Virus record (IMG/VR): IMGVR_UViG_3300010373_000058
Location: 1-54,277 of that record
Source: a virus
DNA: 54,277 nucleotides
Reading direction: 5' to 3' (one strand)
Below are positions 2,320 through 45,719 of the stretch, piece after piece (the stretch's first letter is position 1; the number at the start of each line of letters is the position of its first letter). Under the pieces are notes generated by a model, which worked only from the letters and a program-made list of their open reading frames with translations, was not told the DNA's origin and did no database searches. Position numbers and translations under genes: made by a program.

Positions 2320-2727
2320 TTATTCACTAAAAGTCCTGAAAAACCGCATCGGTTCTTCTGCTGCCTGAATGTTGGTTGAGACGGTGTTATCCGCCTCTGC
2401 CGGGTCATCAGTCTGCAACAGTGGTTCCCAGTCCACAAGGTTGGTCGAGGTTTCAACAATCCAGGTGGTCGCCAGCCCAACGTTCTGAGTGGCCATAGTT
2501 ATCGAAGTGACCACGAAACTGCCCGGTGGATTGCTCGACAGGATTGACGCCGAAAAGTTGTTGATTTCGTTGGTGAGTTCCTTGAGCCGCGCATTGTTAA
2601 TCTCGTTCACCCTCCGTTGCATCTTGTAAACCATGTAACCACCGACGACAACGACCGTGAGTGTCGCCACGATGATGACCATTGCCAGAGTAAGTGAACC
2701 CCGAGAGGTTGAGAATCGGATTTTCAT
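2320..2727 (-). CDS. membrane-anchored protein with a Verrucomicrobiota-type C-terminal motif
   Basis: The 135-residue protein has one N-terminal membrane helix (LTLAMVIIVATLTVVVVGGY), then a charged helical stretch (residues 35-55), then a beta-type domain with VETSTNLVDWEPLLQT and an ending RFFRTF. Phrases of the form STNLxxWxPL ... FFR recur in exported proteins of Verrucomicrobiota, which is the main hint of host in this window. The gene is coupled by ATGA to the upstream membrane gene. Confidence 0.65.
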   Translation of the reverse strand: MKIRFSTSRGSLTLAMVIIVATLTVVVVGGYMVYKMQRRVNEINNARLKELTNEINNFSASILSSNPPGSFVVTSITMATQNVGLATTWIVETSTNLVDWEPLLQTDDPAEADNTVSTNIQAAEEPMRFFRTFSE

Positions 2728-2948
2728 TTACCAGCCTTTCGGTCGAGGACGTGAAAGATTGAGGTGAGCAGCATCCCCGCCAGAAGGCCACTGACAAAGC
2801 TGGCCACGCCCTGACGCGCCATGACTGTTTCAAGCTCGAAACAGAGTATCATTCCCGTGGTGCAGAGCACGGCGATGACCAGCAGCCCGGCTAGGGGCTG
2901 TCGATCAGTCCAGTGATTGAGCCGTTGGAACCAGGTGGTTATTTTCAT
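2724..2948 (-). CDS. small two-helix membrane protein, possible holin-like
   Basis: The 74-residue protein has two membrane helices, about residues 18-37 (PLAGLLVIAVLCTTGMILCF) and 49-66 (SFVSGLLAGMLLTSIFHV), and a short basic C terminus. A GAGAAAGG stretch lies upstream of the ATG as a ribosome binding site. With the partner gene at 2320 it forms a two-gene membrane module. A second holin or holin regulator is possible but not shown. Confidence 0.6.
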   Translation of the reverse strand: MKITTWFQRLNHWTDRQPLAGLLVIAVLCTTGMILCFELETVMARQGVASFVSGLLAGMLLTSIFHVLDRKAGK

Positions 2949-2965
2949 GTGACCTTTCTCGTTGG

Positions 2966-3049
2966 TTAAACTCGCCCCCGACCTGCCGGTGAGTATGCCA
3001 TCAGATTGCGAACTGGCGGCAGGTCCGACAAGTCAGGGACGATATACAT
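2966..3049 (-). CDS. possible 27-residue peptide
   Basis: A short frame starts at the ATG that abuts the 3' end of the tRNA-Leu-like element and ends 17 bases before the next gene. It reads MYIVPDLSDLPPVRN and has no recognisable feature. It is listed because its start matches the pattern at 7228, where the equivalent repeat end also provides a gene start. Confidence 0.25.
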   Translation of the reverse strand: MYIVPDLSDLPPVRNLMAYSPAGRGRV

Positions 3050-3053
3050 AAAT

Positions 3054-3223
3054 TGGTGAGCGCGGCAGACAATTTCAGTCTGCACTTTACCAGACGGGCA
3101 GATATGCTTAACTATTCTGGCACGTATTTGTGGAGCTTACTGCGTTCCGCCAGTTGCTTTCGCATTGCTGACCTTCGCATACCACCAATCACTGCCCGCT
3201 GCGTCTTATTCCGCCACGCGCTC
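3054..3223 (-). other. tRNA-Leu-like element 2 (about 170 nt, ends in CCA)
   Basis: Read on the minus strand, the element opens with GAGCGCG, TG and the D-arm-like GCGGAATAAGACGC. It closes with a hairpin (GCAGAC, seven-base loop, GTCTGC), then CGCGCTC and ACCA. The two 7-mers pair perfectly, as in a tRNA acceptor stem with CCA. Inside, GCGGGCAG can pair with CTGCCCGT. The anticodon region is replaced by about 80 extra bases. Its first 20 and last 22 bases recur almost unchanged in the element at 7056. It is not a standard tRNA. Confidence 0.45.
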
Positions 3224-3225
3224 AT
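3112..3225 (-). CDS. possible 37-residue basic peptide within the tRNA-like element
   Basis: An ATG inside the repeat end starts a frame reading MSAWRNKTQRAVIGG and continuing basic to a TAG. The frame in the sister element at 7064 also begins MSAWRN, but that follows from the shared DNA repeat. Coding is doubtful, because RNA structure may be the constraint here. Confidence 0.2.
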   Translation of the reverse strand: MSAWRNKTQRAVIGGMRRSAMRKQLAERSKLHKYVPE

Positions 3226-3295
3226 AAATCAATTCTGTCGCACCCACCGTTTCCTCACCCGGAGGCTGACCAGTAACCAGGATTGCGATGGTCAT
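3206..3295 (-). CDS. possible 29-residue peptide
   Basis: A short frame reads MTIAILVTGQPPGEETVG and ends LIYERVAE just inside the tRNA-like element. It overlaps the end of the 59-residue frame at 3255. It has no recognisable domain. If real, its last eight codons come from the repeat. Confidence 0.2.
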   Translation of the reverse strand: MTIAILVTGQPPGEETVGATELIYERVAE

Positions 3296-3434
3296 TTAAT
3301 GGATCACCCGGCACGACCGGGCATATTTCGACGCAGAGCTCGTTGGGACACTGCACCGGGCTGTTGCCGGGTGCGACAGAAAGTAATACCCCGTCCCATC
3401 TCCCCGCGACATGGCCAAATGAAAGAAAAGCCAT
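3255..3434 (-). CDS. small cysteine-containing hypothetical protein
   Basis: The 59-residue frame starts at an ATG that lies in a CATGGC/GCCATG hairpin. It reads GRWDGVLLSVAPG, then CPNELCVEICPVVPGDP with three cysteines, and ends NPGYWSASG. Its composition looks like a real protein and it follows the gene at 3468 in the same direction, so it may be the next gene of that operon. No family is recognised. Confidence 0.35.
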   Translation of the reverse strand: MAFLSFGHVAGRWDGVLLSVAPGNSPVQCPNELCVEICPVVPGDPLNDHRNPGYWSASG

Positions 3435-3463
3435 GCAACGGGCGCACGAAGACAGGACGGGGT
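3388..3463. repeat. nested inverted repeats (stem-loop)
   Basis: ACCCCGTCC at 3388-3396 is the exact reverse complement of GGACGGGGT at 3455-3463, and inside it CATGGC (3410-3415) pairs with GCCATG (3430-3435). On the minus strand this follows the stop of the gene at 3468 and contains the start of the 59-residue frame. It could be a structured leader or a processing or termination structure. No U-tract follows. Confidence 0.5.
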
Positions 3464-3467
3464 AAAA

Positions 3468-3662
3468 TCATTTTTCGTAATTTTTTTCAGGGGGCAAGGT
3501 AAGACAGTCCCATTTCAATTCTGAATCGGGAGCGTAACTTTCCCCGGATGCAGTTCTGACACGAATCATTCCTTCGCAGCTTGGATGGGTGTACAGGAAT
3601 TGGAAATCCGCCGACAAACCGTGCGATGTCCATACCCCGTCTCTGGTAACAGTTGAGTTCAT
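3468..3662 (-). CDS. hypothetical protein
   Basis: The 64-residue protein starts three bases after the previous stop and is the last confident gene of the left minus-strand operon. It contains the stretch WTSHGLSADFQFLYTHPSCEGMI and ends basic (PPEKNYEK). No domain is recognised. Tight packing with its neighbours supports it as a gene. Confidence 0.55.
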   Translation of the reverse strand: MNSTVTRDGVWTSHGLSADFQFLYTHPSCEGMIRVRTASGESYAPDSELKWDCLTLPPEKNYEK

Positions 3663-3665
3663 TTG

Positions 3666-3974
3666 TTAAAAGTTCTCGTACTCCGTAAGGTCTATTTCAT
3701 CTCCGGTTGTAGCATCCCTGGCTTTCACTACATTCCCGATTGCAGTCTCGGTGAACGACACGGTTATCCTTCCTCCAACCGGACCCTGTCCAGTTCTACC
3801 CTTGGACCAGGCAGACAACTGTTCTGTTTGTTCCTCTGTTAGATGGAAAGTCATTCGGATGCCTTCCAGTGCGTTATTACCCCGTTCCACATCCCTCCCC
3901 CTGACCAGAATCCACCCGATGCGCTTTTCAATAATTTCGTATGAAATCCAGTCGATGAATTGATTGTGTCGCAC
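3666..3974 (-). CDS. hypothetical protein, GTG start
   Basis: The frame starts at a GTG preceded by GAAGGA nine bases upstream and gives 102 residues. The C-terminal two thirds look protein-like (MTFHLTEEQTEQLSAW, then a beta-rich part ending DEIDLTEYENF). The frame overlaps the 3' 124 bases of the upstream gene in another frame. The upstream gene's last 40 residues look like a shadow, so an indel may have split one original gene or shifted its end. Confidence 0.55.
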   Translation of the reverse strand: MRHNQFIDWISYEIIEKRIGWILVRGRDVERGNNALEGIRMTFHLTEEQTEQLSAWSKGRTGQGPVGGRITVSFTETAIGNVVKARDATTGDEIDLTEYENF

Positions 3975-4219
3975 ACGGTTCCATCCTTCGGGGATTCTTC
4001 ATCAAGAGAAATCCACGGTCGTGGTAGATCGGGAACTTCAACATAGGAAATCTTATTGTGATAACCAGAACCAATTCCGTGGTACGTGTGTCCAGGGTAA
4101 TGCTTGTAATGCCCACGGTCCCAAAACTTCCACCACCTACGGTTTGTACATGACGATAAGTTCAATTCCGATTGGCATTTAGCGCAATAAAATACAGTGG
4201 TTACAACTTGTATCTTCAT
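3851..4219 (-). CDS. zinc-ribbon-like hypothetical protein
   Basis: The gene has the strong ribosome binding site AAGGAGG seven bases before its ATG. The 122-residue product has an N-terminal CAKC ... C motif of zinc-ribbon type and a His/Tyr-rich middle (GHYKHYPGHTYHGIGSGYH). Its last 40 residues, Ser- and Gly-rich, overlap the next gene and may be a frameshift product. Function unknown. Confidence 0.55.
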   Translation of the reverse strand: MKIQVVTTVFYCAKCQSELNLSSCTNRRWWKFWDRGHYKHYPGHTYHGIGSGYHNKISYVEVPDLPRPWISLDEESPKDGTVCDTINSSTGFHTKLLKSASGGFWSGGGMWNGVITHWKASE

Positions 4220-4474
4220 TCATCCTCCTTGGTCGTTAGGGCGCTTATGTTTGAGAATCCATTTAGCGATCCCATTCATCGCGCTCTTGGTTCTTGGATC
4301 AATTTTGCGATAGTCGTTTACACCGTCGTCGTAGCCCTCGTCTTTCCTGACTTCTTCGAGCGCAGCACGCCAGATGGTTTTGGCCAGCGCCCTAACCACG
4401 CGCTGCATTGAACCGCCGCTTCGCTTGCGGTTCAGTTTGCGCCGGTCAATTCGGTGAGATGATTTCTTTTTCAT
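4220..4474 (-). CDS. small basic hypothetical protein
   Basis: The 84-residue basic protein (MKKKSSHRIDRRKLNRKRSG at its start) is linked to the upstream gene by a four-base ATGA overlap. The middle is helical with mixed charge. The basic N terminus suggests nucleic-acid contact, but no family is recognised. Confidence 0.55.
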   Translation of the reverse strand: MKKKSSHRIDRRKLNRKRSGGSMQRVVRALAKTIWRAALEEVRKDEGYDDGVNDYRKIDPRTKSAMNGIAKWILKHKRPNDQGG

Positions 4475-4755
4475 AGTTCCTTACAGCGTCGGTCAGTGTG
4501 CTTGTCGTTAGCCACCATTGGCCATGTAGGTTGTTTCGCCGCCCATTCCATGAGCTTCCACACTGCATCGCACCGTATGGATTCAGGTACATCTTCGTGT
4601 TCATGGGCTAGTGATGCCAGCAGGTCGAACCTTGAGTTTGCTATAGCGGGCCCATTCGGATGCGCCACTAGATACCAGCCGTTTTGTTCGTCCAGTATGG
4701 CGATGATTGGGTGGTTTTCTCCGAAAGTGGATAACAGGTCAGATGGATCGCTCAT
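4471..4755 (-). CDS. hypothetical protein
   Basis: The ATG at 4755 overlaps the upstream stop as ATGA, which fixes the start although the frame is open further upstream. The 94-residue product has a compact alpha/beta composition with the stretch IIAILDEQNGWYLVAHPNGP. It is one of the small coupled genes of the left minus-strand operon. No family is recognised. Confidence 0.55.
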   Translation of the reverse strand: MSDPSDLLSTFGENHPIIAILDEQNGWYLVAHPNGPAIANSRFDLLASLAHEHEDVPESIRCDAVWKLMEWAAKQPTWPMVANDKHTDRRCKEL

Positions 4756-4937
4756 AGATGTTCTTTCCCGGCCATAGGCCAAAACCTTCGATTCCCGCAA
4801 TAGTAGGTCATGTGTCTGCCGACATGCCCGGCCTTTCGTTCGCACACGCGATATTTTCCTGGGTCGCGTTCATCGCTTCTCATTACCGTTGCCGACAGGC
4901 ATTTGCACGACCCGTCATCAGACCGTGAACGTGACAC
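4752..4937 (-). CDS. small cysteine/histidine protein
   Basis: The 61-residue frame begins at a GTG at 4937 that overlaps the upstream gene by 20 bases. An in-frame ATG at 4883 is an alternative start. It contains C-x-C and C ... GHVGRHMTYYC, a small Cys/His pattern recurrent in phage zinc-binding miniproteins. It is ATGA-coupled to the next gene. Confidence 0.5.
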   Translation of the reverse strand: MSRSRSDDGSCKCLSATVMRSDERDPGKYRVCERKAGHVGRHMTYYCGNRRFWPMAGKEHL

Positions 4938-5100
4938 TGTAACCCCCTTCTTCTCTCGCCTTGGTCTGGAGCTTCACGGGGACATAGGCCGCATAGATTA
5001 AAACGTCATGCCGTTCGTCATTGGTGGCAACCTTGAATGATTTTCGGCGCTCTATGAGCTTCCTGATTTGAGGCTTTGAAAGCGTTCTGCCGTTTTGCAT
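4918..5100 (-). CDS. first gene of the left minus-strand operon, hypothetical
   Basis: The 60-residue protein is basic at its start (KPQIRKLIERRKSFKVA) and beta-like at its end. It is the promoter-proximal gene of the leftward operon that runs to about 3468. A candidate TTGACA box at 5130-5135 on the minus strand with a 17-base gap to CAAATT would place transcription start almost at the ATG. Confidence 0.55.
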   Translation of the reverse strand: MQNGRTLSKPQIRKLIERRKSFKVATNDERHDVLIYAAYVPVKLQTKAREEGGYSVTFTV

Positions 5101-5199
5101 GGTCGCAATTTGCGGCAGATTAACAGGCTTGTCAAAGGAATTTTAATTTTGTTTGAAAAAGTTCTTGCGCGGGGTCGCGGGACTGATAAATTGCAACCC
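5101..5199. promoter_or_regulatory. divergent promoter region between left and right early operons
   Basis: This AT-rich gap separates two divergent operons. On the minus strand TTGACA (5135-5130) and CAAATT (5112-5107) are 17 bases apart. On the plus strand TTGCGC (5165-5170) and TAAATT (5187-5192) are 16 bases apart. The boxes match consensus only partly and the assignments are by eye. Confidence 0.3.
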
Positions 5200-5466
5200 A
5201 TGAACCCGACCAACGGAGAAATCAAGATTGAGAAGAAAGTTCCACTGCCATCCAAGGGTGCGTATTCAAATTTGGGTGGTCGGAACAAAGGCAAAGGTAA
5301 GTGGCAAACGATTCTGTCTAAACTTCAAGTTGGAGATTCCTTTTTCGTTGGCAACCGTACTACGTCTCAGTTAAGCAGTTCGATTGCAAAGTCCAAAAAA
5401 CATTTTGATATAATACTGACAATGAGAACCGTCGAGGGCGGCGTGCGGATCTGGCGTGTCAAGTAG
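5200..5466 (+). CDS. hypothetical protein, first of the rightward early operon
   Basis: The ATG at 5200 follows the divergent promoter region. The open frame extends further upstream, but that part overlaps the promoter. The 88-residue product is basic with the stretch GRNKGKGKWQTILSKLQVGD and ends in beta-like TVEGGVRIWRVK. This resembles small phage proteins that carry a short DNA-binding or adaptor fold, but no family is assigned. Confidence 0.55.
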   Translation: MNPTNGEIKIEKKVPLPSKGAYSNLGGRNKGKGKWQTILSKLQVGDSFFVGNRTTSQLSSSIAKSKKHFDIILTMRTVEGGVRIWRVK

Positions 5467-5473
5467 AACGAAC

Positions 5474-5662
5474 ATGAAACCGACCAGGGCACAAAGAAGG
5501 AAGCAATTGGACGACCAGCTTTTGAGGGCCGGATTCGAGCTTCAATGTGCCATCCGCGAAATGCGGTCGATACTAATTCAACTGGAAGATAAACAGCAAG
5601 TATGGACCCGTGCGGCAGATGCTCTTCGAGCGGCGCGAGAAGAACTCAAATCTAAGGCTTAA
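5474..5662 (+). CDS. small coiled-coil protein
   Basis: The 62-residue product starts at an ATG seven bases after the previous stop. It is helical throughout with a heptad-like pattern (LLRAGFELQCAIREMRSILI) and charged ends. It lies in the early operon. Function unknown. Confidence 0.55.
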   Translation: MKPTRAQRRKQLDDQLLRAGFELQCAIREMRSILIQLEDKQQVWTRAADALRAAREELKSKA

Positions 5663-5674
5663 TCTGTCAGCAAC

Positions 5675-5863
5675 ATGAGCGACGAAAATCAATTTGCATC
5701 AGGAGTAATTAGTATGGCGAGGAATTGTATCTCAGCCGTTCAGCTTATGCGTACAGGTAAATGGGATTTGAATGATGTGGAAAGATGGCTCAATGCCGTA
5801 ATCTCAAACGACTCGAATTATCTCCGGCAAGTTCTAATAGAACTCAAGCAAAGGAAGAAATGA
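5675..5863 (+). CDS. small helical hypothetical protein
   Basis: The 62-residue acidic-to-basic helical protein contains LMRTGKWDLNDVERWLNAVI. It starts 12 bases after the previous stop and is ATGA-coupled to the next gene. No domain is recognised. Confidence 0.55.
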   Translation: MSDENQFASGVISMARNCISAVQLMRTGKWDLNDVERWLNAVISNDSNYLRQVLIELKQRKK

Positions 5864-6114
5864 ACGACCTTGTAATCAGCGATGCCGCGATAAAGGCCGT
5901 CGAGAAATGTCGCGAGGTTTCATTTCATGTCCCGCTCATGCAGAAAGCCGTGCAACTGGCGATAAACGCGGAAGTGTCCCGAATAGCTGGGCCCGTCAAG
6001 GAGGCTGCTCAAATTGCATGGCTGGCACTGGACAGTCGTAATGAGAAAGAACTGGTTATCGCAAAATCAGTAATAGAAATCTGTCTTGAATATTGGAACT
6101 CGAATTGCAAATGA
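5860..6114 (+). CDS. helical hypothetical protein
   Basis: The start is fixed by the ATGA overlap at 5860-5863. The 84-residue product is alpha-helical (SDAAIKAVEKCREVSFHVPL). It is part of the chain of overlapping early genes. Function unknown. Confidence 0.55.
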   Translation: MNDLVISDAAIKAVEKCREVSFHVPLMQKAVQLAINAEVSRIAGPVKEAAQIAWLALDSRNEKELVIAKSVIEICLEYWNSNCK

Positions 6115-6323
6115 AAACAACAGACGATGGAGGGCCAGCTTATCCTTGTGAGCACAGAAATAGTCCGGCGATAGAACTGTACCAAGGGATGTCTCTCCGA
6201 GACGCCTTTGCAATGGCGGTATTGCAGGCTTCCCATTGGCCAAGTTTAACCTCCTTTCCGGACATGGTAGCCAAAGAATGTTACCGGATGGCCGACGCCA
6301 TGATTGCCGAAAGAAAGAAATGA
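6111..6323 (+). CDS. phage small protein with GMSLRDAFA motif
   Basis: The 70-residue protein starts at the ATG of an ATGA overlap and carries DGGPAYPCE followed by YQGMSLRDAFAMAVLQA and a late YRMADAMIAERK. This order (DGGPAFP, GMSLRDYFA, ADAML-x-R) is widespread in short phage proteins of unknown function. The motif match makes the gene secure, but the role is unknown. Confidence 0.75.
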   Translation: MKTTDDGGPAYPCEHRNSPAIELYQGMSLRDAFAMAVLQASHWPSLTSFPDMVAKECYRMADAMIAERKK

Positions 6324-6589
6324 AACAACCCGATTGGGCCGAGCCAATGGGCGAGAGTCAGGTGCATCCGTATGAGCGGGATGGAACCCATCCACGCATC
6401 ATTGACGATTCATCGGGGCGATGTGGACGACGATTCAGCGGACTGGGCTGGTTGAATCAGGGAATGACCGATGATGATGTTGAGGCAGAGAAGAAAGAGA
6501 GCGAGCAATGGTTCAAAGATCATGGCTGCGGAACAACGCCAGAAGAGATTGACCAATGGCTTGAACGAAATGGGTGGAGGAAACCATGA
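6320..6589 (+). CDS. hypothetical protein
   Basis: The ATGA overlap fixes the start. The 89-residue acidic protein has a disordered first half and a helical second half (DDDVEAEKKESEQWFKDHG). It is an early gene without a recognisable domain. Confidence 0.55.
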   Translation: MKQPDWAEPMGESQVHPYERDGTHPRIIDDSSGRCGRRFSGLGWLNQGMTDDDVEAEKKESEQWFKDHGCGTTPEEIDQWLERNGWRKP

Positions 6590-6867
6590 AACAAGATTAC
6601 GCAAAACAGTACCTTCCGCACGTCGACGCATTCGGTGATGGGGAGTTGCAAAGTAAGAGCATGGATGGACGTTGGATTGATTGGCCAGAAGGATTGCGCT
6701 GCGATTTTTCTGACCCTCCGGATTTCTACCGCCGACGACCGAAGAAGATTGAGTGTTGGGCGGTGGTGTCTCCCAATGGTGCTCAATACTTATTTAGTAT
6801 AGAAGACCACGCAAAGCAATGGGCAATCAACAACGGTCGCATCGTCCACTTGAAGGAGGTTGAATGA
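6586..6867 (+). CDS. hypothetical protein
   Basis: The 93-residue product starts at an ATGA overlap. It is rich in Asp and aromatics (GRWIDWPEGLRCDFSDPPDF) and ends in an alpha/beta part (WAVVSPNGAQYLFSIEDHAK). It is coupled to the following gene by ATGA. No family is assigned. Confidence 0.55.
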   Translation: MKQDYAKQYLPHVDAFGDGELQSKSMDGRWIDWPEGLRCDFSDPPDFYRRRPKKIECWAVVSPNGAQYLFSIEDHAKQWAINNGRIVHLKEVE

Positions 6868-7067
6868 CCGTTTACGACAATCTTCCTTCGCCTCAACTTT
6901 CGCCTGATGCACTGGCCGAGTTTCGTAAGATTGTGAACGGAGACAGCAACATCGACGGTGAAGAGCTTGGCCGCGAGGGATTGGTTTATCGGCTGAGTTG
7001 GACGGAAAACAAATGGTCACTGACAAATTACGGGGTTCATCTGGCCAGGAGAATGACTGATTTATGA
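6864..7067 (+). CDS. small hypothetical protein upstream of the tRNA-like element
   Basis: The 67-residue protein ends MTDL with its TGA inside the 12-base direct repeat that flanks the tRNA-Leu-like element. Removing the element would place this TGA over the ATG of the gene at 7228, restoring the usual ATGA junction. A short hydrophilic alpha/beta protein of unknown role. Confidence 0.55.
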   Translation: MTVYDNLPSPQLSPDALAEFRKIVNGDSNIDGEELGREGLVYRLSWTENKWSLTNYGVHLARRMTDL

Positions 7068-7231
7068 GCGCGTGGCGAAATGTAAAGACGCTAGGACACG
7101 TAGAGACGGAACGGGACGTGTCAATCCTCCGTGGGGGTTTCTCGCACGGGAGTAACGCAAGGCGAAAGCCGGAAACTCTGGTTGCACCGACTCTTGCAGG
7201 TTCCAATCCTGCCGCGCTCACTGATTTATGA
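7056..7231 (+). other. tRNA-Leu-like element 1, flanked by a 12-base direct repeat
   Basis: ACTGATTTATGA occurs at 7056-7067 and 7220-7231. Between them, GAGCGCG (7066-7072) pairs with CGCGCTC (7213-7219). It is followed by TG and GCG AAATGTAAAGA CGC, like a tRNA-Leu D arm, and preceded on the 3' side by GCAGG-TTCCAAT-CCTGC, a five-base stem with a seven-base loop as in a T arm. About 100 unrelated bases replace the anticodon arm. Ends are shared with the element at 3054-3223, and the T-like stem differs by paired changes. Confidence 0.45.
7064..7231 (+). CDS. possible 55-residue basic protein spanning the tRNA-like element
   Basis: A frame from the ATG at 7064 to the TGA at 7229 overlaps both neighbours as ATGA, which would suit this operon. 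But both overlaps lie in the direct repeats, so an insertion produces the same pattern. The product (MSAWRNVKTLGHVETERD at the start) resembles nothing known. RNA structure is the likelier constraint. Confidence 0.3.
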   Translation: MSAWRNVKTLGHVETERDVSILRGGFSHGSNARRKPETLVAPTLAGSNPAALTDL

Positions 7232-7581
7232 AAGCAATCACCTGCGATGCCATTATCACTGGAATCAGCAGCCGGTCAGATCGCAGCTTGTCTCTACGAT
7301 TGGCTACTCCTGAATTGTCCGCAGAGGAATGCACCGCTTTTCACCAGATCAAGGGATTGAATTTGAAAGCCCTGTTTCAACCTTCTGATTCTGTTCCGCA
7401 GGAACTTGTCACCGTTCACAATGACCTGGATATTAAAACTCCATCTCAACGGCTGCGTTCGGTCATTTATATTCTTTGGAAACAAATCAAGCCGGATGAA
7501 ACCAATTTTGAACTGTTTTACCTCGATCAGATGAACGAGGTAATAGAACGATTTAAGGCCCAACTTGAACCACGGCCTTGA
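7228..7581 (+). CDS. phage protein next to the SSB-like gene
   Basis: The 117-residue protein reads AIITGISSRSDRSLSLRLAT near the start and has a KTPSQRLRSVIYILWKQ block at about residues 73-90, then an acidic helical end. I associate the two motifs ('...RLATPEL...' and '...KTPSQRLR...') with small phage proteins encoded beside single-stranded-DNA-binding or recombination genes, which fits the next gene. A direct DNA-metabolism role is inferred from position only. Confidence 0.65.
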   Translation: MKAITCDAIITGISSRSDRSLSLRLATPELSAEECTAFHQIKGLNLKALFQPSDSVPQELVTVHNDLDIKTPSQRLRSVIYILWKQIKPDETNFELFYLDQMNEVIERFKAQLEPRP

Positions 7582-7600
7582 AAGAAAGAACCAAAATACC

Positions 7601-8206
7601 ATGCACTGGAAAGAAAGCGGTCAATACGAAAACCCACCAGCAGGATCACATCTCGCTCGTTGCATTCATGTCATTGACATGGGCACTCAAAAACACACTT
7701 TCGGAGGGGAGGAATGGACAAGCCGGGACGTTAGAATTACCTGGGAATTGCCCACTGAACTAATGGAAGGCAAGTATAACCCGGAAGTAAAAGGTAAACC
7801 ATTCGCAGTCAGCAAAACATTCAAACAGTCGTTGCATAACGCTTCTTCGCTTAGAGGATTTCTTGAAAGCTGGCGCGGACGAAAGTTCACCAAGGAAGAA
7901 TTGTCCAGTTACGATCCTCGCAAGCTGCCAGGCGTTCCTTGCCGCATTACATTGATTGAGAACGGAGATTACATCAACGTGGATGGCATCGCCCCGATAG
8001 GCAGGAATGAGAAGTGTCCGGATCAGGTGAATCCATCTGTTTACTTCTCACTTGAACCTGACCAGTACAACCCCGGAGTCATGGCCGCTCTGACAGATAA
8101 GACAAGGGAAAAGATTCAGAACTCACCGGAGTTTGCTGCATTGATGAGATCAACCGAACCTGCCACAGAAAAGCCAAATGATACGGAAGACGATGTGGCA
8201 TTCTGA
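7601..8206 (+). CDS. single-stranded DNA-binding-like protein
   Basis: The ATG at 7601 starts MHWKESGQYENPPAGSHLAR, which begins a 201-residue protein with the order typical of phage SSB/DUF669-like replication proteins: PPAGxHLARC, TWELPTELM, KPFAVSKTFKQSL, LESWRGRKFTKEEL, a GVPCRITLI strand and an acidic tail (EKPNDTEDDVAF). A beta-barrel core and acidic C-terminal tail suit an SSB that recruits partners. The upstream in-frame start at 7565 overlaps the previous gene and is less likely. Probably acts with the helicase and resolvase encoded further right. Confidence 0.7.
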   Translation: MHWKESGQYENPPAGSHLARCIHVIDMGTQKHTFGGEEWTSRDVRITWELPTELMEGKYNPEVKGKPFAVSKTFKQSLHNASSLRGFLESWRGRKFTKEELSSYDPRKLPGVPCRITLIENGDYINVDGIAPIGRNEKCPDQVNPSVYFSLEPDQYNPGVMAALTDKTREKIQNSPEFAALMRSTEPATEKPNDTEDDVAF

Positions 8207-8208
8207 AC

Positions 8209-8490
8209 ATGAACGAAACCTGGTACCATTGGATAATCGAATTCGTGCCGGAAGATTCCCACAATCCACGGAAACAAATCACGTTCGTTGGCACGATGGA
8301 AGAGGCTGAAAAGGAATCTGAGAGGAGTATGCCGGACTTCGAGGTTAACGAGGTGGTGTTCCAAAGACGCTGGAGTTACGCTGATTGTTGCGAACGATGC
8401 GGTGAGAGAATCAGGGGAAGGATAATCGTTATCGGTGGATACAGGCTGTGCGGATTGTGTTTCACGGAAAGTATGTTGACAGTCAGTTAA
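8209..8490 (+). CDS. zinc-ribbon protein
   Basis: The 93-residue protein starts two bases after the SSB-like stop. Its C-terminal half has CERCGERIRG ... LCGLC, a four-cysteine zinc ribbon. The N-terminal half is an alpha/beta segment (YHWIIEFVPE). It may be an accessory to the replication protein upstream. Function unknown. Confidence 0.6.
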   Translation: MNETWYHWIIEFVPEDSHNPRKQITFVGTMEEAEKESERSMPDFEVNEVVFQRRWSYADCCERCGERIRGRIIVIGGYRLCGLCFTESMLTVS

Positions 8491-8497
8491 ACGCAAA

Positions 8498-8686
8498 ATG
8501 AACGAAACTGATGAGCACTGCAAAGACATCGCATGGGAGATGTTCTGCGCCGCGCACCCGGTAGAAGCGAACCAGCATAATCCAGATGGCTTCTGGAAAT
8601 ACTTTCATGCTCGCGCCCCGAACGTAACCCGAAGTAAAATGGTCGAGATGCTGAAACAGTGCGAAGAACCTCCAGCGAATGATTGA
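8498..8686 (+). CDS. small hypothetical protein
   Basis: The 62-residue acidic helical protein contains HPVEANQHNPDGFWKYFHAR. It starts seven bases after the previous stop in the same early operon. No domain recognised. Confidence 0.5.
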   Translation: MNETDEHCKDIAWEMFCAAHPVEANQHNPDGFWKYFHARAPNVTRSKMVEMLKQCEEPPAND

Positions 8687-8689
8687 GAT

Positions 8690-9040
8690 ATGCAAATGAA
8701 CCCGCTCGCACGACAGGCCGCTGAGGATTGGTTTAAAGACCCACCTGGGAATCCAGACTGGTCTCCAAGCATTAGCCGGAAGGAATACATAGAAGACATG
8801 GTGAACCGTCTCGCCGGTCATTTGGAACCGTATTTGCGCAGGGAAGTATCGCATCTGGTGGAAGCGTTGGGCGTCATTATAGAGGAATACGAAGACAGGA
8901 AAATTCATTTTGGAGATGAATACCTTTGGAAGAAGAACGAAGATTCAGCGCAAGTAACAGTCGTGAAAGCCCTGCACGATTTCTACAATAACGCTGCCGG
9001 TGAGCCACTGCCGCCGACAGCGAACGTGAACGACAAATAG
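8690..9040 (+). CDS. hypothetical protein whose 3' end runs into the first attC-like site
   Basis: The 116-residue helical protein (MVNRLAGHLEPYLRREVSHL region) is the last clear phage gene before the cassette array. Its final codons (AAGEPLPPTANVNDK) are encoded by the 5' arm of the attC-like site at 8986. Genes that end inside attC are usual for integron cassettes. The original C terminus may have been replaced. Confidence 0.55.
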   Translation: MQMNPLARQAAEDWFKDPPGNPDWSPSISRKEYIEDMVNRLAGHLEPYLRREVSHLVEALGVIIEEYEDRKIHFGDEYLWKKNEDSAQVTVVKALHDFYNNAAGEPLPPTANVNDK

Positions 9041-9112
9041 AACCTATGAAAATCAAGCAAGCATCGAAACGGAAACGCGGGCGGCAGTTGCGCTCCACTG
9101 GCATTGTTAGCC
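8986..9112 (+). other. attC-like recombination site 1 (start of the plus-strand array)
   Basis: The 5' box CAATAAC (8986-8992) is followed by arm GTG-AGCCA-CTGCCGCC (9000-9015). The 3' arm (9080-9098) pairs with it but has extra bases T88 and C95, and leads over TGGCATT to GTTAGCC (9106-9112). This is the order of an integron attC site: R'', L'', loop, L', R'. The inner pairing is slightly irregular (AGCCA against TGCGCT). Confidence 0.6.
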
Positions 9113-9321
9113 TGCGTCGAAAAAGAAAGAACTGGCATAGCTGCCCGACGTGCCGCCAAGACATGCGTGAAGAACCGCACGACGGACTTAACGGCAAAGA
9201 CTGCCCGCAATGCGGACAGGGAATGTCATGGAGACGCGCAAAACGCAAGCAGCTAACGACCAAGCTCACCCCACTGCCGCTGGCGGGACGGGTGGAGCGC
9301 AGAAAGGACTTTGAAATATGA
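9046..9321 (+). CDS. zinc-ribbon protein in a gene cassette
   Basis: The 91-residue frame has a very basic start that reads across the 3' arm of attC-like site 1 (KRKRGRQLRSTGIVSLRRKR), then a four-cysteine ribbon CPTCRQDM ... CPQCGQGM at about residues 43-66. Its end lies in attC-like site 2. The functional part is probably the ribbon domain. The flanking residues come from recombination-site sequence. Start uncertain. Confidence 0.5.
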   Translation: MKIKQASKRKRGRQLRSTGIVSLRRKRKNWHSCPTCRQDMREEPHDGLNGKDCPQCGQGMSWRRAKRKQLTTKLTPLPLAGRVERRKDFEI

Positions 9322-9379
9322 GCAAAACTTTGAACGTGAAAAGCGCGGCGGCAGTTGCGGGTGCAGCGCCTTGTACGGC
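9251..9379 (+). other. attC-like recombination site 2
   Basis: R'' AGCTAAC (9251-9257), spacer GACCAA, arm GCT-CACCC-CA-CTGCCGC (9264-9280). The 3' arm (9348-9367) pairs with it except for three extra bases (T55, C58, C64), then spacer GCCTT and GTACGGC, one T short of the GTTRRRY box. The cassette begins TTAGCCTGC (9107) and its R'' region reads GCAGCTAAC, almost its complement. Degenerate at R' but otherwise typical. Confidence 0.6.
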
Positions 9380-9731
9380 GATTCCGCGTGAGCATCTGCT
9401 GGCAATGCTGAAAGATGCCGCGTGGTATTCCGGCGGGCGCAGAGAATACGGCGACCATCAAGGCTACAGCTACGACGTGAACGAAGAAACGTCCCTGCGT
9501 GATGTGCTCTATCGTGACGAACCGTCGAACGCTCTAAAAAAATCTTCAACTATTTTTGACCGCATAAACATTGGTCGGAAATGGTGTCGGTGTCTGAAAA
9601 TCACAAACCCGACCCGCATGAACACGATGCGAAATCGTGTCAAGCCCCCGACTAAACATCAAGAATCATCAAGCGGGCGTGGACGGAACTGCTCAAAATC
9701 TCAAACGCAGAAAACCCATCTGGTAAAATAG
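9318..9731 (+). CDS. cassette ORF, 3' part uncertain
   Basis: The 137-residue frame overlaps the previous one as ATGA and starts inside attC-like site 2 (SAAAVAGAAPCTAIP is attC-encoded). Residues 25-70 look real (HLLAMLKDAAWYSGGRREYG ... DVNEETSLRDVLYRDE). The basic second half after about residue 72 does not, and another frame is open there, so a frameshift near 9540 is possible. No family is recognised. Confidence 0.4.
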   Translation: MSKTLNVKSAAAVAGAAPCTAIPREHLLAMLKDAAWYSGGRREYGDHQGYSYDVNEETSLRDVLYRDEPSNALKKSSTIFDRINIGRKWCRCLKITNPTRMNTMRNRVKPPTKHQESSSGRGRNCSKSQTQKTHLVK

Positions 9732-9737
9732 TAGCGT

Positions 9738-10142
9738 ATGAAACACATATACAACGACGGCGGCAGCGGGACGAAGAAGCAGCGCGACTGTGTTGTGCGT
9801 GCAATCGCAATCGCTACCGGAAAACCATACGCGGAAGTCCGCGACACCATCAACCATCTGGCCGATGAAGTCTATTTCGACGGCTCGGATGCGTCAGCCG
9901 GAGTCCACAAGCAACTCTACAAAGACTATCTCAAGTCCTTGGGCTGGGTGTGGACTGCAACCATGAGCATCGGCAGCGGATGCAAAGTCCACCTGCGCGA
10001 CGGAGAACTGCCGATGGGAACTCTCATCGTGTCAGTGTCGCGGCATCTGGTTGCCGTGATTGATGGCGTGATACACGACACCCACGACTGCTCACGCGAA
10101 GGAACAAGGTGCGTCTATGGCTACTGGCGCAAGGCGGCATAA
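9738..10142 (+). CDS. papain-like cysteine-protease-fold protein in a gene cassette
   Basis: The 134-residue protein reads YNDGGSGTKKQRDCVVRAIA, with a candidate catalytic Cys at about residue 18, followed by ATGKPYAEVRDTI, and later SRHLVAVIDGVIHDTHD with a candidate His near residue 103, ending RCVYGYW. This arrangement (DCVVRAIAIATG ... HLxAVIDGVIHDTxD) is common in short phage and bacterial proteins of the papain-like fold. Substrate unknown. The stop TAA lies in the R'' box of attC-like site 3. Confidence 0.65.
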   Translation: MKHIYNDGGSGTKKQRDCVVRAIAIATGKPYAEVRDTINHLADEVYFDGSDASAGVHKQLYKDYLKSLGWVWTATMSIGSGCKVHLRDGELPMGTLIVSVSRHLVAVIDGVIHDTHDCSREGTRCVYGYWRKAA

Positions 10143-10247
10143 CGGCGGGAACTGAGACACCGCCGAACTGCGGTGTCCGAACTCTAAAAAATCTTATGGC
10201 AAAAAAGAAAGCGATAACGGCGGTTGTCTCCAGTGACCCTGTTAGGC
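10137..10247 (+). other. attC-like recombination site 3
   Basis: R'' GCATAAC (10137-10143), arm ACTG-AGACA-CCGCCG (10151-10165), 3' arm CGGCGG-T-TGTCT-C-CAGT (10218-10234) with two extra bases, spacer GACCCT, R' GTTAGGC (10241-10247). The R' box matches GTTRRRY exactly. The loop also holds a GACACCGC/GCGGTGTC hairpin (10157-10178). Confidence 0.75.
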
Positions 10248-10423
10248 CGCTGGGCATCCTGTCTGTAATAGGAGCAAGAAACCGCTCCGATAAACTCAGC
10301 GAACACGCTGTATGGGCGGAAGTCATAGTGACTGACGAGCAAGGCAAAGAATGGATATTTGATGTCTCTGCGTTCAACTATGCAATGCGGCCTAACGACC
10401 AGATCAGGCGCGTGGCCGATTAA
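10196..10423 (+). CDS. small hypothetical protein in a gene cassette
   Basis: The ATG at 10196 lies in the loop of attC-like site 3 and gives 75 residues. The first 15 (AKKKAITAVVSSDPVRPLG) are attC-encoded, and the rest is a small alpha/beta protein (WAEVIVTDEQGKEWIFDVSA). The cassette runs from 10242 to about 10492: it starts TTAGGCCGC and its R'' region at 10387 is the exact complement GCGGCCTAA. Function unknown. Confidence 0.5.
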   Translation: MAKKKAITAVVSSDPVRPLGILSVIGARNRSDKLSEHAVWAEVIVTDEQGKEWIFDVSAFNYAMRPNDQIRRVAD

Positions 10424-10498
10424 CCCGCGCCTCCAAATTTATGAGCAAACATCGAACTGCTAAAGCCCCGCCACGTCGCCTGCATCGGATGGTTGGGC
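10390..10498 (+). other. attC-like recombination site 4
   Basis: R'' GCCTAAC (10390-10396, exact RYYYAAC), spacer GACCA, arm GAT-CAGGCG-CGTGG (10402-10415). The 3' arm CCACG-T-CGCCTG-C-ATC (10471-10486) has two extra bases, then spacer GGATG and R' GTTGGGC (10492-10498, exact GTTRRRY). This is one of the cleanest sites of the array. The stop codon of the upstream frame and the start of the next lie in its loop. Confidence 0.8.
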
Positions 10499-10755
10499 CT
10501 ATCCGTCGTGACTGCGCCGTGCGCAAATACTCGACGTGTGGAAGTGCTGACCTCCACGAACTCGACTGGAGCAACTGGTTTCAAGACAACGGCTACATCC
10601 ATGTGCGCCGATTCCGTGCTGATGAAGGCGAAACGTGGCATCGAGTGTATCCGAAAAACATCAAAGGCCGAATCTGTAAACGTGTCGCCTGCGTAGATGG
10701 CTCGCCACACTGGTTGCACGATAGGCCCAACGAGAAAGCTGACCTACCCGGATGA
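10441..10755 (+). CDS. hypothetical protein in a gene cassette
   Basis: The 104-residue frame starts at 10441 in the loop of attC-like site 4. An ATG at 10489, at the cassette edge, may be the real start. The protein has DLHELDWSNWFQDNGYIHVR, further Trp/His residues and no known domain. The cassette begins TTGGGCCTATC (10493), and GATAGGCCCAA near its end is the exact complement, as in an excisable integron cassette. Confidence 0.5.
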   Translation: MSKHRTAKAPPRRLHRMVGPIRRDCAVRKYSTCGSADLHELDWSNWFQDNGYIHVRRFRADEGETWHRVYPKNIKGRICKRVACVDGSPHWLHDRPNEKADLPG

Positions 10756-10831
10756 GCGCCGCCGAAACCATTCTATCGCCAGAGGACGTAGCCCGGCGCT
10801 CATCCGGGTTAGGTCCAGCGCCTTGTTACGC
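10725..10831 (+). other. attC-like recombination site 5
   Basis: R'' GCCCAAC (10725-10731), spacer GAGAAA, a long arm that starts GCTG-ACCTA-CCCGG (10738 to 10761). The 3' arm from 10794 ends CCGGG-T-TAGGT-C-CAGC (10819) with two extra bases at the same places as in the other sites, then spacer GCCTT and R' GTTACGC (10825-10831). The perfect part of the stem is about 24 pairs long, longer than usual. Confidence 0.85.
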
Positions 10832-10853
10832 CTCATTGTCGAGGGTGCGGGAC

Positions 10854-11363
10854 ATGCCAAACTCTGACACCTTCGATGTGCCATCCATCGCGGGCTTCGT
10901 GAAGAAGTATCTGATGAAATCACAAATCTCGGTGGACTGCTTCTCGCGCAACAAACGCTGGACAACCTACACCAACGACCTGAACCCGAACACGGCGGCG
11001 GAACACCACATGGACGCCGAGGACTTCCTGACGATGATCGCAGACAAGGGCATCGTGGCCGACCTGGTAATCTGTGACCCGCCATACTCGCCGCGCCAGG
11101 TAAAGGAGTGCTACGACTCCATCGGGCTGCCGATGAAGCAAACGGACGCGCTACTCGGCATGACGCGCAAACGGCTCAAGCGGCAAATCAACCGCCTCGT
11201 GCCAGTCGGCGGCGTGGTGCTGCACTTCGGATGGAACACGGTCGGCATGGGTAAAGGATGGGACATCGAAGAAATCATGCTCGTCTGCCACGGCAGCGAC
11301 CACAACGACACAATCTGTATGGCCGAAAGGAAAACGCCCGAATTACAGGAGACGTTCCTATGA
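10854..11363 (+). CDS. DNA N-methyltransferase-like protein in a gene cassette
   Basis: The 169-residue protein contains DLVICDPPYSPRQVKECY, the DPPY catalytic motif of amino-group DNA methyltransferases (about residues 75-92), after a short acidic pre-motif NDLNPN. It is shorter than full adenine methyltransferases and no target domain is visible. The cassette starts GTTACGCCTCAT (10825) and its end ATGAGGCGTAAC (11360-11371) is the exact 12-base complement. A methyltransferase could protect phage DNA or mark it. Confidence 0.6.
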   Translation: MPNSDTFDVPSIAGFVKKYLMKSQISVDCFSRNKRWTTYTNDLNPNTAAEHHMDAEDFLTMIADKGIVADLVICDPPYSPRQVKECYDSIGLPMKQTDALLGMTRKRLKRQINRLVPVGGVVLHFGWNTVGMGKGWDIEEIMLVCHGSDHNDTICMAERKTPELQETFL

Positions 11364-11370
11364 GGCGTAA

Positions 11371-11556
11371 CATAGCAATAGGCCAAACCGGGGAAACAAA
11401 CTCCAAATTAAAAGGCGCTCAAAGGAATCTCGCAAGCGTTGGTCTGACAATTCACTTCGCAAACGTGAGAAGTTGAGGGTTGAACGGTCGATTGCCAGAG
11501 AGCAGGATTTGGAAGATGAAATGAGGCTGTTGTATGCCAACCTGGACAAGCGATGA
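11371..11556 (+). pseudogene. gene that lost its start next to the array end
   Basis: The frame is open from the last base of the terminal R'' box (11365-11371) to a TGA that overlaps the RusA start as ATGA. It encodes a basic, coiled-coil-like segment (KREKLRVERSIAREQDLEDE) with no ATG or GTG at its 5' end. A TTG at 11474 is the first possible start. The likely reading is a phage gene whose 5' end was cut off when the cassettes entered. Confidence 0.4.
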
Positions 11557-12098: not shown

Positions 12099-12220
12099 TT
12101 TGTAGCCGAGTAGTAAAGGACAATTGCGATACCGAACAGGCACAGGACCAGGAGCCAGATGGTGATTGCCTCGGCGTCAAAGGACGCTTTCAGGCAGCGC
12201 AGGAATTCAGTTAGTTTCAT
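12095..12220 (-). CDS. tiny single-helix membrane protein
   Basis: The 41-residue product has one membrane helix (AITIWLLVLCLFGIAIVLYY) after a short amphipathic start and ends in Lys. The start codon is formed by the end of the 33-base repeat at 12219. It is ATGA-coupled to the downstream gene and is one of three tiny membrane genes in this operon. Confidence 0.5.
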   Translation of the reverse strand: MKLTEFLRCLKASFDAEAITIWLLVLCLFGIAIVLYYSATK

Positions 12221-12251
12221 ATACGAACAAATGTCGCCTAATCCTTGTTAG
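12219..12251 (-). repeat. 33-base direct repeat, copy A (collapsed attC-like)
   Basis: Read on the minus strand this is CTAACAAGGATTAGGCGACA followed by TTTGTTCGTATAT. The copy at 13478 differs at two of 33 positions. CTAAC next to GATTAG resembles R'' and R' boxes of an attC site with the stem between them deleted. It lies directly after the stop of the acyl-carrier-like gene. Confidence 0.55.
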
Positions 12252-12535
12252 CTGCTTGCGTGTTTTGCCACTTCCGCCGCCCATTCCTTGAGCGTGCTTT
12301 TCTCGTTGAGCCGTTCGATCCATTCTTCCGGGATGTCACGGCAGATTTGCTCCTCGACGTGCATGGCGATTTCCACATGGTCGAGACTGTCCAGGCCGAG
12401 CGTTTCAGTCGTATCGTTCTCGGTGGCACTTTCGCTGTGATTTTCATGTATCCATTCGAGCACCGCAGTTAACAATTCAGTGCAGGACAACTCGGTCGGC
12501 ATCTTTGGATTAGGCGTTGCGTCTTGGTTTTTCAT
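12248..12535 (-). CDS. acyl carrier protein-like
   Basis: The 95-residue acidic protein has LGLDSLDHVEIAMHVEEQI, the phosphopantetheine attachment motif with the modifiable Ser at residue 50, and the following helix IPEEWIERLNEKSTLKEW as in acyl carrier proteins. Normal ACPs have about 78 residues, and this one has a longer, disordered N terminus. ACP carries acyl chains on a prosthetic arm. A role in a phage is unknown. The start is set by an ATGA overlap at 12532-12535. Confidence 0.75.
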   Translation of the reverse strand: MKNQDATPNPKMPTELSCTELLTAVLEWIHENHSESATENDTTETLGLDSLDHVEIAMHVEEQICRDIPEEWIERLNEKSTLKEWAAEVAKHASS

Positions 12536-12828
12536 AGGTCTTTTTGCTTTTGATAGCACTCGGTTTTACCCGCCGAGTGCCTGACTTCACCGTTCGGCGA
12601 TTCGCCCGTCCAGTTCCACGGCACGGTCAGGTTGCCCATGTCGTCACACGGAATTGTTGCATCTATTTCCGAGTTGTATGGCTGACACCATTCATCGCAT
12701 CGCGGGCAGTTCTCACCGCTTGGCGGTAGCGGGTCATGGCCCGGCGACTTCCACCGATGCTCACATTCCGGGCAGTGAAAGAAACGCCAACCAATCCGAA
12801 CAACGGGATTCGTCTCAGGGGATTTCAT
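12532..12828 (-). CDS. zinc-ribbon protein
   Basis: The 98-residue protein carries CPECEHRWKSPGHDP ... CPRCDEWCQPY, a four-cysteine ribbon at about residues 19-49, then an acidic and aromatic tail. It overlaps the upstream gene by 14 bases and the ACP-like gene by ATGA. Such ribbons are frequent in phage accessory proteins. Function unknown. Confidence 0.6.
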   Translation of the reverse strand: MKSPETNPVVRIGWRFFHCPECEHRWKSPGHDPLPPSGENCPRCDEWCQPYNSEIDATIPCDDMGNLTVPWNWTGESPNGEVRHSAGKTECYQKQKDL

Positions 12829-13477: not shown

Positions 13478-13510
13478 ATATACGAACAAGTGTCGTCTAA
13501 TCCTTGTTAG
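13478..13510 (-). repeat. 33-base direct repeat, copy B (collapsed attC-like)
   Basis: This copy matches 12219-12251 at 31 of 33 bases. With the bases before it, the minus strand reads GTCGCCTAAC AAGGA TTAGACGAC, a short inverted repeat of an RYYYAAC-type box and a degenerate R'-like box. It contains the stop codon of the gene at 13507. It may be a remnant attC in which the L arms were lost. Confidence 0.55.
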
Positions 13511-13737
13511 GCGACTTTGCACTCATCGCATGTGTCCTCACCGTTCATCACGTCCACCCAGGCGGTTTTACAGACGGTGCATTTCGCCTCTCGGACAGCT
13601 TTCGATTCTTTCGCCTGTTGCTCTGCGATGTAGTCGTCCATCTCGCAGTCGCGGGCAAACTCTTGGTCTTCGATTGATGGGCCATTTGGATTGCGCATAT
13701 TCGTCGCCGAAGCATGCGCTCCAGCGAACCACGCCAT
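13507..13737 (-). CDS. small zinc-binding protein in a cassette-like unit
   Basis: The 76-residue frame starts in the 3' arm of attC-like site 6 and ends in repeat copy B. The C-terminal half has CTVCKTAW ... CDEC, a four-cysteine site, and the middle is acidic (EDQEFARDCEMDDYIAEQQA). The first ten or so residues are encoded by recombination-site sequence. Unknown function. Confidence 0.5.
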   Translation of the reverse strand: MAWFAGAHASATNMRNPNGPSIEDQEFARDCEMDDYIAEQQAKESKAVREAKCTVCKTAWVDVMNGEDTCDECKVA

Positions 13738-13798
13738 CGCGCTCTTGTTGCATTGTTACGGTTTGCTCGGCGTGGTCGCTGAGCTTGGGTCGTTATGC
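13706..13798 (-). other. attC-like recombination site 6 (minus strand)
   Basis: On the minus strand: R'' GCATAAC (13798-13792), arm GCTC-AGCGA-CCACGCC (13784-13769), 3' arm GGCGTGG-T-TCGCT-G-GAGC (13735-13718) with two extra bases, then a degenerate R' CTTCGGC. The cassette's first bases GTTATGCCGACA (minus strand from 13937) are the exact complement of TGTCGGCATAAC at this R''. That self-complementarity is expected of an excisable cassette. Confidence 0.7.
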
Positions 13799-14031
13799 CG
13801 ACAGGCCATGCGAAAGAGTTCCGTTGAGATACCCCACACATTGGAAGCAGTTCCGGCGTCACCTTTTTTCTCTAGCGCCTTTGAGATTTCGAGCAGCTTT
13901 TCGGAGAGTTTGAACAGCTCATCATTGTCGGCATAACCCGGCGCTGGAGGCAGCGGCTTGCCGCCCGGTGCGTTCAGCCATTCCTCTACTTCGGGAGACT
14001 CGTTGTAGTATTTTTCGATTTCAGGATTCAT
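13756..14031 (-). CDS. hypothetical protein in a minus-strand cassette
   Basis: The 91-residue frame begins in the loop of attC-like site 7, runs through its 3' arm (APGGKPLPPAPGYADND) and has a helical core (LFKLSEKLLEISKALEKKGD). Its stop lies in the loop of attC-like site 6. The cassette proper is 13936 down to about 13713, so the N-terminal 30 residues belong to the preceding site. Unknown function. Confidence 0.5.
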   Translation of the reverse strand: MNPEIEKYYNESPEVEEWLNAPGGKPLPPAPGYADNDELFKLSEKLLEISKALEKKGDAGTASNVWGISTELFRMACRHNDPSSATTPSKP

Positions 14032-14054
14032 CGCCGTGCCTCAGCTTGTTAGTT
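13931..14054 (-). other. attC-like recombination site 7 (minus strand)
   Basis: On the minus strand: R'' AACTAAC (14054-14048), arm GCTG-AGGCA-CGGCG (14045-14032), 3' arm GCCG-C-TGCCT-C-CAGC (13957-13943) with extra bases at the usual two places, spacer GCCGG, R' GTTATGC (13937-13931). The R''-L'' spacer is only two bases, shorter than in the other sites. Confidence 0.75.
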
Positions 14055-14303
14055 CTGTGGCTTCACCCACGAGAGTCTTGCGTGCTCTACGCAGGCGATT
14101 TCGCAGATTTGATTTATCACGAGGTCGCACGCTTCGGCTGTATCTTCCGGGTCTTGCCCTTCGATGTCTTGGTTCTGGTATGCCTCGCAGAGCGTGAAGA
14201 TTCGCTCCAACGCCGCCACAGAATCACACACAGCAGCCAACAGCGCCTCACTTGTTGGCTGGCCAACGCCGTTGGCGTTGGCGGATGTCGCTTTGTCAAT
14301 CAT
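14049..14303 (-). CDS. hypothetical protein ending in attC-like site 7
   Basis: The 84-residue acidic helical protein (ATGA-coupled to the upstream gene) has a core around LAAVCDSVAALERIFTLCEA. Its stop TAA is in the R'' box of attC-like site 7, so it may be the first cassette gene of the minus block. Near its start, GCCAACGCC/GGCGTTGGC form an inverted repeat. Unknown function. Confidence 0.55.
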   Translation of the reverse strand: MIDKATSANANGVGQPTSEALLAAVCDSVAALERIFTLCEAYQNQDIEGQDPEDTAEACDLVINQICEIACVEHARLSWVKPQN

Positions 14304-35690: not shown

Positions 35691-36034
35691 AAAAAGCATC
35701 TTCCCTTGCCGCTGCATGGCATAGATCACCAGAGGGATTCAGGTGGCACAGTCAAAACACGCGGAATCAATGGTCAAACAAGAAACCGGTTGGATGCAGT
35801 TGCGTGGAGTGTGGCAGAGCGTTTACGTCGATTCACCCCAGGGTGGCTCTGGTCTGCTCTATTCGATGTGCCAACCTGCGAGCTATACGAAAGGCTGGAT
35901 TTGTTAAGCGCGTTTGCAAGGTGTGTAACAAGGAATTCAGTGCCAGAAAACACGCAAGGAGCTGCCACTGTTCCCGTCATTGTGCGGCAATTACAATTGC
36001 CAGAATCAAAGCCGGTTTACAATCTTTCGATTGA
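35393..36034 (+). CDS. HNH homing endonuclease between the two intein halves
   Basis: The 213-residue protein in a different frame contains RLLHRRIWSDKHGPIPPGFC, then VHHRNGNWRDNRLENLELM, a textbook HNH core, and two C-terminal zinc fingers (CVECGRAF ... CANLR and CKVCNKEF ... CSRHC). It starts near the end of the N-intein homology and ends at 36034, overlapping the C-intein coding sequence by at least 60 bases in another frame. It probably promotes homing of this locus into intein-less terminase genes. Confidence 0.9.
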   Translation: MGNAEKIIYKRRTYRIQSSGRYYQDDNRSGAKERLLHRRIWSDKHGPIPPGFCVHHRNGNWRDNRLENLELMGRSAHASMHLRKRWKKPKERRFLLRELKKASSLAAAWHRSPEGFRWHSQNTRNQWSNKKPVGCSCVECGRAFTSIHPRVALVCSIRCANLRAIRKAGFVKRVCKVCNKEFSARKHARSCHCSRHCAAITIARIKAGLQSFD

Positions 36035-45223: not shown

Positions 45224-45230
45224 GTCCTTT

Positions 45231-45715: not shown

Positions 45716-45719
45716 GCAC

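Follow-up and report, generated by a model that had tools for sequence, protein, structure and literature searches.

The question raised by IMG/VR virus record IMGVR_UViG_3300010373_000058, all 54,277 bases of which make up the window analysed here, is how a phage comes to hold cassette arrays of integron type, and whether these are its own or a piece of something bacterial. Phages exchange genes constantly and, apart from generalised recombination, the mechanisms of their gene exchange are to our knowledge mostly not known; bacteria use swappable cassettes to gather antibiotic-resistance genes. An original prediction from the letters of the window placed five attC-like sites in a row and proposed a cassette cluster without an integrase in a phage, and this much is supported, since attC sites are found and the record has no integron integrase. 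It was incomplete in that it missed the polarity of the genes, which are inverted relative to attC, and also two attI-like sites, extra attC sites elsewhere in the window and related phages that encode the integrase (IntI). The window is likely to come from a phage genome that has several arrays of cassettes, of an integron type adapted to phages. On balance, and with less assurance, we favour the wider proposal of a phage-maintained integron lineage, with its own IntI clade, its attI, inverted cassettes and an attC acting as 5' leader and donor of the start codon, which would shuffle accessory genes among unrelated phages and which integrase-less phages would join in trans.

Recognition of the attC sites makes use of two covariance models. 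Because R1 was trained partly on window attC sites, the five claimed ones included, R2 was built from 18 sites all outside the window, and the control was 439 kb of phage DNA, namely the IMG/VR loci matching an attI 16-mer. A covariance-model run had been proposed as the check on the claimed sites, and as made with R2, a model of our own, it gives attC above background: ten window sites at E values of 8e-15 to 5e-6, among them all five claimed ones (7.6e-15 to 1.9e-9), and no match in the control DNA. At least five attC sites lie beyond the claimed block at 8984-11371. An Rfam search gave no match, and R1 finds no attC in the published phage clusters of TJE1 and P12002L, so that R1 is no general attC detector. 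The sites are as follows.

8984-9113, plus strand: attC site 1 (bottom strand on plus); R2 E=1.3e-12, DNA fold z=-2.0
9249-9380, plus strand: attC site 2, R box decayed (TTGTACGG); R2 E=7.6e-15, fold no better than shuffles
10135-10248, plus strand: attC site 3; R2 E=1.9e-9, fold z=-3.4
10388-10499, plus strand: attC site 4; R2 E=6.8e-12, fold weakly better than shuffles
10723-10832, plus strand: attC site 5; R2 E=5.6e-12, fold z=-6.6
12466-12600, minus strand: attC of minus array B; R2 E=3.9e-7
13705-13800, minus strand: attC of minus array A; R2 E=4.7e-10
13930-14060, minus strand: attC of minus array A; R2 E=5.4e-6
4389-4515, minus strand: attC with a short cassette at 4236-4395 (GTTAGGGCGCT/AGCGCCCTAAC); R2 E=1.8e-10
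45134-45224, plus strand: attC in the late region; R2 E=3.3e-8, fold z=-4.1
45623-45716, plus strand: degenerate attC (AAC to AAA) closing the 45-kb cassette; seen by eye, no model match

Folding of the claimed sites, set against shuffled sequence, bears out the predicted stems clearly at sites 3 and 5 and weakly at sites 1 and 4, and does not do so at site 2; the 45-kb site is also clear, and the remaining window sites fold no better than shuffled sequence. The claimed site at 9249 is an attC by R2, with a decayed R box. In the attC stem 85% of cells are paired, against 70% after shuffling, and 14 pairs covary.

The three complementary pairs of cassette starts and ends in the original prediction exist as written (10242-10250/10387-10395, 10493-10503/10720-10730 and 10825-10836/11360-11371), and single pairs of such length are not rare by chance in the window. 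Taken over 108 cassette units from the window and related phages, the cassette start agrees with its own terminal box at 5.7 of 8 bases, a level to be compared with 3.05 after shuffling and reached in 0 of 2000 shuffles. Complementarity of unit ends that lie hundreds of bases apart argues against taking the hairpins not as recombination sites but as attC-like leaders or terminators conserved between small phage genes, as do the full IntI and attI of the relatives and a duplicated unit with exact crossover boundaries, both described below. That most of the hairpins hold the start codon of the next gene speaks for leaders, and even with this we take such a reading to be very improbable.

The open reading frames (ORFs) and genes carried by the window cassettes are these.

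9046-9321, plus strand: ORF with weak zinc-ribbon similarity (below Pfam cut-offs), ATG in the loop of attC 1
9318-9731, plus strand: ORF, ATG in the loop of attC 2
9738-10142, plus strand: phrog_3754 gene (PHROG E=1.6e-16), stop TAA exactly at the AA|C crossover
10196-10423, plus strand: ORF, ATG in the loop of attC 3
10441-10755, plus strand: ORF, ATG in the loop of attC 4
10752-11363, plus strand: phage-type DNA methyltransferase gene (phrog_11619, E=2.7e-36)
12248-12535, minus strand: acyl-carrier-like gene (PF00550 E=0.0012, 19.5 bits, below the cut-off of 20.8), stop at the AA|C crossover
13756-14031, minus strand: ORF starting inside the attC at 13930-14060
13507-13698, minus strand: ORF of 63 aa with CxxC pairs, from its sequence, stop at the AA|C crossover
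45225-45713, plus strand: phrog_25637 gene

The R''-L'' arm of an attC is defined as the one with the extrahelical bases (PMC2727003). Window attC sites have these bases on the 3' arm when read on the strand that bears the genes, as the original prediction also had its extra unpaired bases, so the genes are on the attC bottom strand and the names R''/L'' and L'/R' given in that prediction were swapped. With the same model the attC sites of class 1 (P1 record), Vibrio p16 and Shewanella M16-3 fall opposite to the cassette-gene strand, the Shewanella match and some of the Vibrio matches being weak. A reversed polarity of attC relative to intI was considered and rejected, as bacterial integrons gave the same strand; with the convention settled by the class 1 and Vibrio integrons, it is the genes and not attC that are reversed. 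The bottom strand of attC bears the longest ORF in 88 of 110 inter-attC intervals, with clear cases at 41 to 3, and the corresponding figure for the Verrucomicrobiota integron L166 is 1 to 12, bottom to top. When only sequence between the sites is counted the figures become 55 to 21, against 2 to 9 in L166. Intervals within one locus are not independent, and counted by locus the bottom strand leads by 21 to 2, in a set that counts in the window as well as a few loci for which no intI was fetched. A loop ATG opens a frame of at least 40 codons beyond the site at 77 of 133 attC sites (12 of 136 on the other strand), and the crossover falls exactly at the end of the stop codon in 15 of 107 units, with 0.45% expected. 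Every window gene for which a phage homologue can be recognised (the methyltransferase, phrog_3754 and phrog_25637) is on the bottom strand. Genes are inverted within these cassettes: they lie on the attC bottom strand, face attI and intI, and usually start in the attC loop. A universal reading phase from the loop start codon was also tried and rejected, with phases at 29/20/24, and its absence fits with gene and attC travelling as one unit.

Where the integrase might come from is addressed by the relatives. Searching with the window methyltransferase cassette protein found contigs L002 and L003, and in L002 an integrase stands directly after the array, scoring 268.3 bits with TIGR02249 against a cut-off of 265. 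Its relatives at 52-71% identity lie in some 20 viral contigs in IMG/VR. About 22 IMG/VR contigs in all encode the clade, which has a support of 100/100 on the tree, where it also took in the long-branched viral row L110 and four rows from metagenome-assembled genomes (MAGs). Among the best 80 loci of a GTDB species-genome scan, close IntI occur only in five Verrucomicrobiota MAGs, the rest being at or below 42%; E 1e-80 is passed, in a sample of 289 Verrucomicrobiota genomes, only by the copy of G025, which is frameshifted, and by one 47% match; and in INPHARED the best IntI matches are 38% identical. Verrucomicrobiota may be the hosts, a guess that goes back to the few members from MAGs. An attC lies upstream of intI in all 19 listed clade loci (17 viral, with L119 and L116 from MAGs) and in L002, and in nearly all of the clade attI and an attC array directly precede intI; in L074, where hardly any sequence precedes the gene, no attC is matched, and L091 is truncated and has attC sites downstream. 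Three IntI-bearing contigs have head or tail protein matches (L078, L090, L082) and that of L073 a helicase, and the viral status of the others rests on the IMG/VR classification. An ORF at 607-2583 of L003 looked terminase-like by eye and matched no profile.

More distant IntI (34-40%) are present in the viral contigs L093, L096, L101-L104 and L106-L109, several of them with arrays, and the genes of L106 are on the same strand as in the clade just described. A further viral contig, L008, has at least 14 detected attC sites around a methyltransferase gene at 2330-10449, its IntI search being limited to the fetched stretch. In L220 (Rctr41k), a virus from an anaerobic methane-oxidising enrichment, 4680-8547 holds an integrase-like gene with two attC matches downstream on the opposite strand, a layout differing from that of the clade.

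The window itself has attI-like sites, of which two come from both a consensus comparison and an attI scan.

12219-12251, minus strand: attI-like site B, CTAACAAGGATTAGGCGACATTTGTTCGTATAT, agreeing at 32/33 with a consensus derived from the window copies
13478-13510, minus strand: attI-like site A, CTAACAAGGATTAGACGACACTTGTTCGTATAT
11367-11395, plus strand: possible degenerate attI at the end of the plus array, by eye only and missed by the attI scan

Sequence just upstream of the L002 intI agrees with the window attI consensus at 29/33, and a conserved AAC..TGATTA.GC.AC..TGTTCGTATAT element is upstream of most clade intI genes, deviating or having no clear match in a few loci (L075, L116, L090). 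An IMG/VR scan with the attI 16-mer gave 45 matches, of which only that in the L002 contig has the longer motif and the rest look like chance; as a null for the attI scan these loci are biased, since each was picked for having the motif. Both window sites end short minus-strand arrays and are followed by other genes and not by intI. A variant compatible with the phage-adapted integron would have an intI of the window phage itself outside the record: the record, an IMG/VR contig, may be incomplete and the attI-like sites are of the kind that precede intI in the relatives, but beyond both of them are other genes with no integron-integrase match, and we regard this variant as unlikely.

Cassettes and sites are shared with other phages, and in one relative a cassette seems to have moved. 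L073 has a 254-base unit twice (5566-5819 and 7717-7970), the copies 253/254 identical and bounded by AA|C on both sides, with the second adjoining attI, which as judged from sequence suggests recent activity. By blastn the methyltransferase block of the window is 90.0% identical in L003 (window 10813-11371) and 91.5% in the IntI-bearing L002 (window 10804-11366), and the identity runs between cassette boundaries (L002:5011-5573, L003:4106-4664). Its R'/R'' boxes differ among the three phages and yet are complementary in each (ACGCC/GGCGT, CAGCC/GGCTG and ATGCC/GGCAT), as would be expected if the folded site is under selection. Window attC site 4 is 87% identical to an attC of the IntI-bearing phage L077, and L223 has the 45-kb cassette block 45207-45635 at 94.6% identity, with its end at GACTCCTAA (both blastn). 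In the distant relative G001 structural genes match those of the window, and the 42.5-46.3 kb region is too different for an empty-site comparison. Megablast of the first 25 kb of the window against 50,697 phage records gave no match; window genes include a DnaB-type helicase and a terminase (weak match).

Integrons and clusters of attC sites lacking an integrase (CALINs) are already published from phages, among them attC that IntI1 recombined (Qi et al. 2023, PMC9892861), and the phage CALINs are explained there by capture from hosts. Applied to the window, the arrays would be inert pieces of a host chromosomal integron taken up by illegitimate recombination, with which the lack of intI in the record and the decay of some sites agree. 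The gene polarity is however opposite to that of bacterial integrons, the attI-like sites match the site beside an intI on a phage contig, the methyltransferase cassette is of a phage family and occurs in 0 of 289 Verrucomicrobiota genomes (a search without positive control), and other phage contigs have further cassettes or attC bodies of the window as well. Capture from a host thus seems to us unlikely. A phage-adapted integron has its own difficulties: TIGR02249 has no match in the window record, which is possibly incomplete, several window attC sites or R boxes are decayed, and shared gene blocks usually come without the attC body and shared attC bodies without the gene, which is not predicted by bottom-strand recombination alone.

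In the proposed mechanism, replication would expose single-stranded DNA in which the attC bottom strand could fold, to be bound and cut by IntI as in bacterial integrons, and a circular cassette would be inserted at attI or swapped between attC sites, the recombination being inferred. Each attC stands on the 5' side of its own gene, to which its loop commonly gives the start codon, and since intI points the same way as the genes a single phage operon can take in the array from end to end. As the record has no intI, IntI would act in trans, supplied by the host or by a second phage in the same cell, or be encoded in a part of the genome outside the record. If true, unrelated phages would have a site-specific route for exchange of methyltransferases and other accessory genes, and with inverted cassettes the attC hairpin would sit in the leader of each mRNA and not in its tail.

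Having at least two attC sites and no nearby integrase, the window is a CALIN, and the category itself is known because phage CALINs are published (Qi et al. 2023). Features of a complete integron are also seen, namely attC with a conserved fold and extrahelical bases, complementary cassette ends and, by similarity to the site upstream of the clade intI, attI adjoining the array at two attI-like sites; an intI in the same element is absent from the window record and present in related contigs. Bacterial cassettes usually have their gene on the attC top strand, directed away from attI, which is not what the window has. CALINs of the virulent phages TJE1, P12002L and PH101 (PMC9892861) are alike in being integrase-less attC clusters with methyltransferase cassettes, although those of TJE1 and P12002L are of another attC type, and the window differs further in its several arrays, its attI-like sites, the inversion of its genes and the linked intI of its relatives. 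Temperate-phage integrons (Vibrio p16, Shewanella M16-3, P1 with class 1) share IntI, attI and attC in a phage record but are host-type, with canonical gene polarity and IntI 31-37% identical to the clade. The reverse-oriented integrases of Spirochaetota have a similarly unusual direction of intI versus cassette genes; there intI itself is reversed according to the literature, whereas here attI/attC polarity to intI is canonical and the cassette genes are reversed. The chromosomal integron L166 has by model the same attC type, and attC upstream of intI, but its IntI is only 37% identical and its genes are on the canonical strand in 12/13 intervals. The new part is in the relatives, as a phage-associated IntI clade and inverted cassette genes, of neither of which a report was found in open-access papers.

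Away from the cassettes, the terminase-like gene at 33453-36233 has an apparent intein. Homology to L001 breaks off at residue 556, ahead of a Hint-like CFSGDTKILT, and picks up again past ..GILVSN in an ORF at 35706-36233; a stop codon separates the two ORFs. Because an other-frame ORF at 35393-36034 within the region matches an HNH endonuclease (PF13392, E=9.9e-15), the gene may carry a split or fractured intein. Both ends of the record (1-25 and 54257-54277) carry CCATCAAGCTGGACAA, possibly a repeat where assembly stopped.

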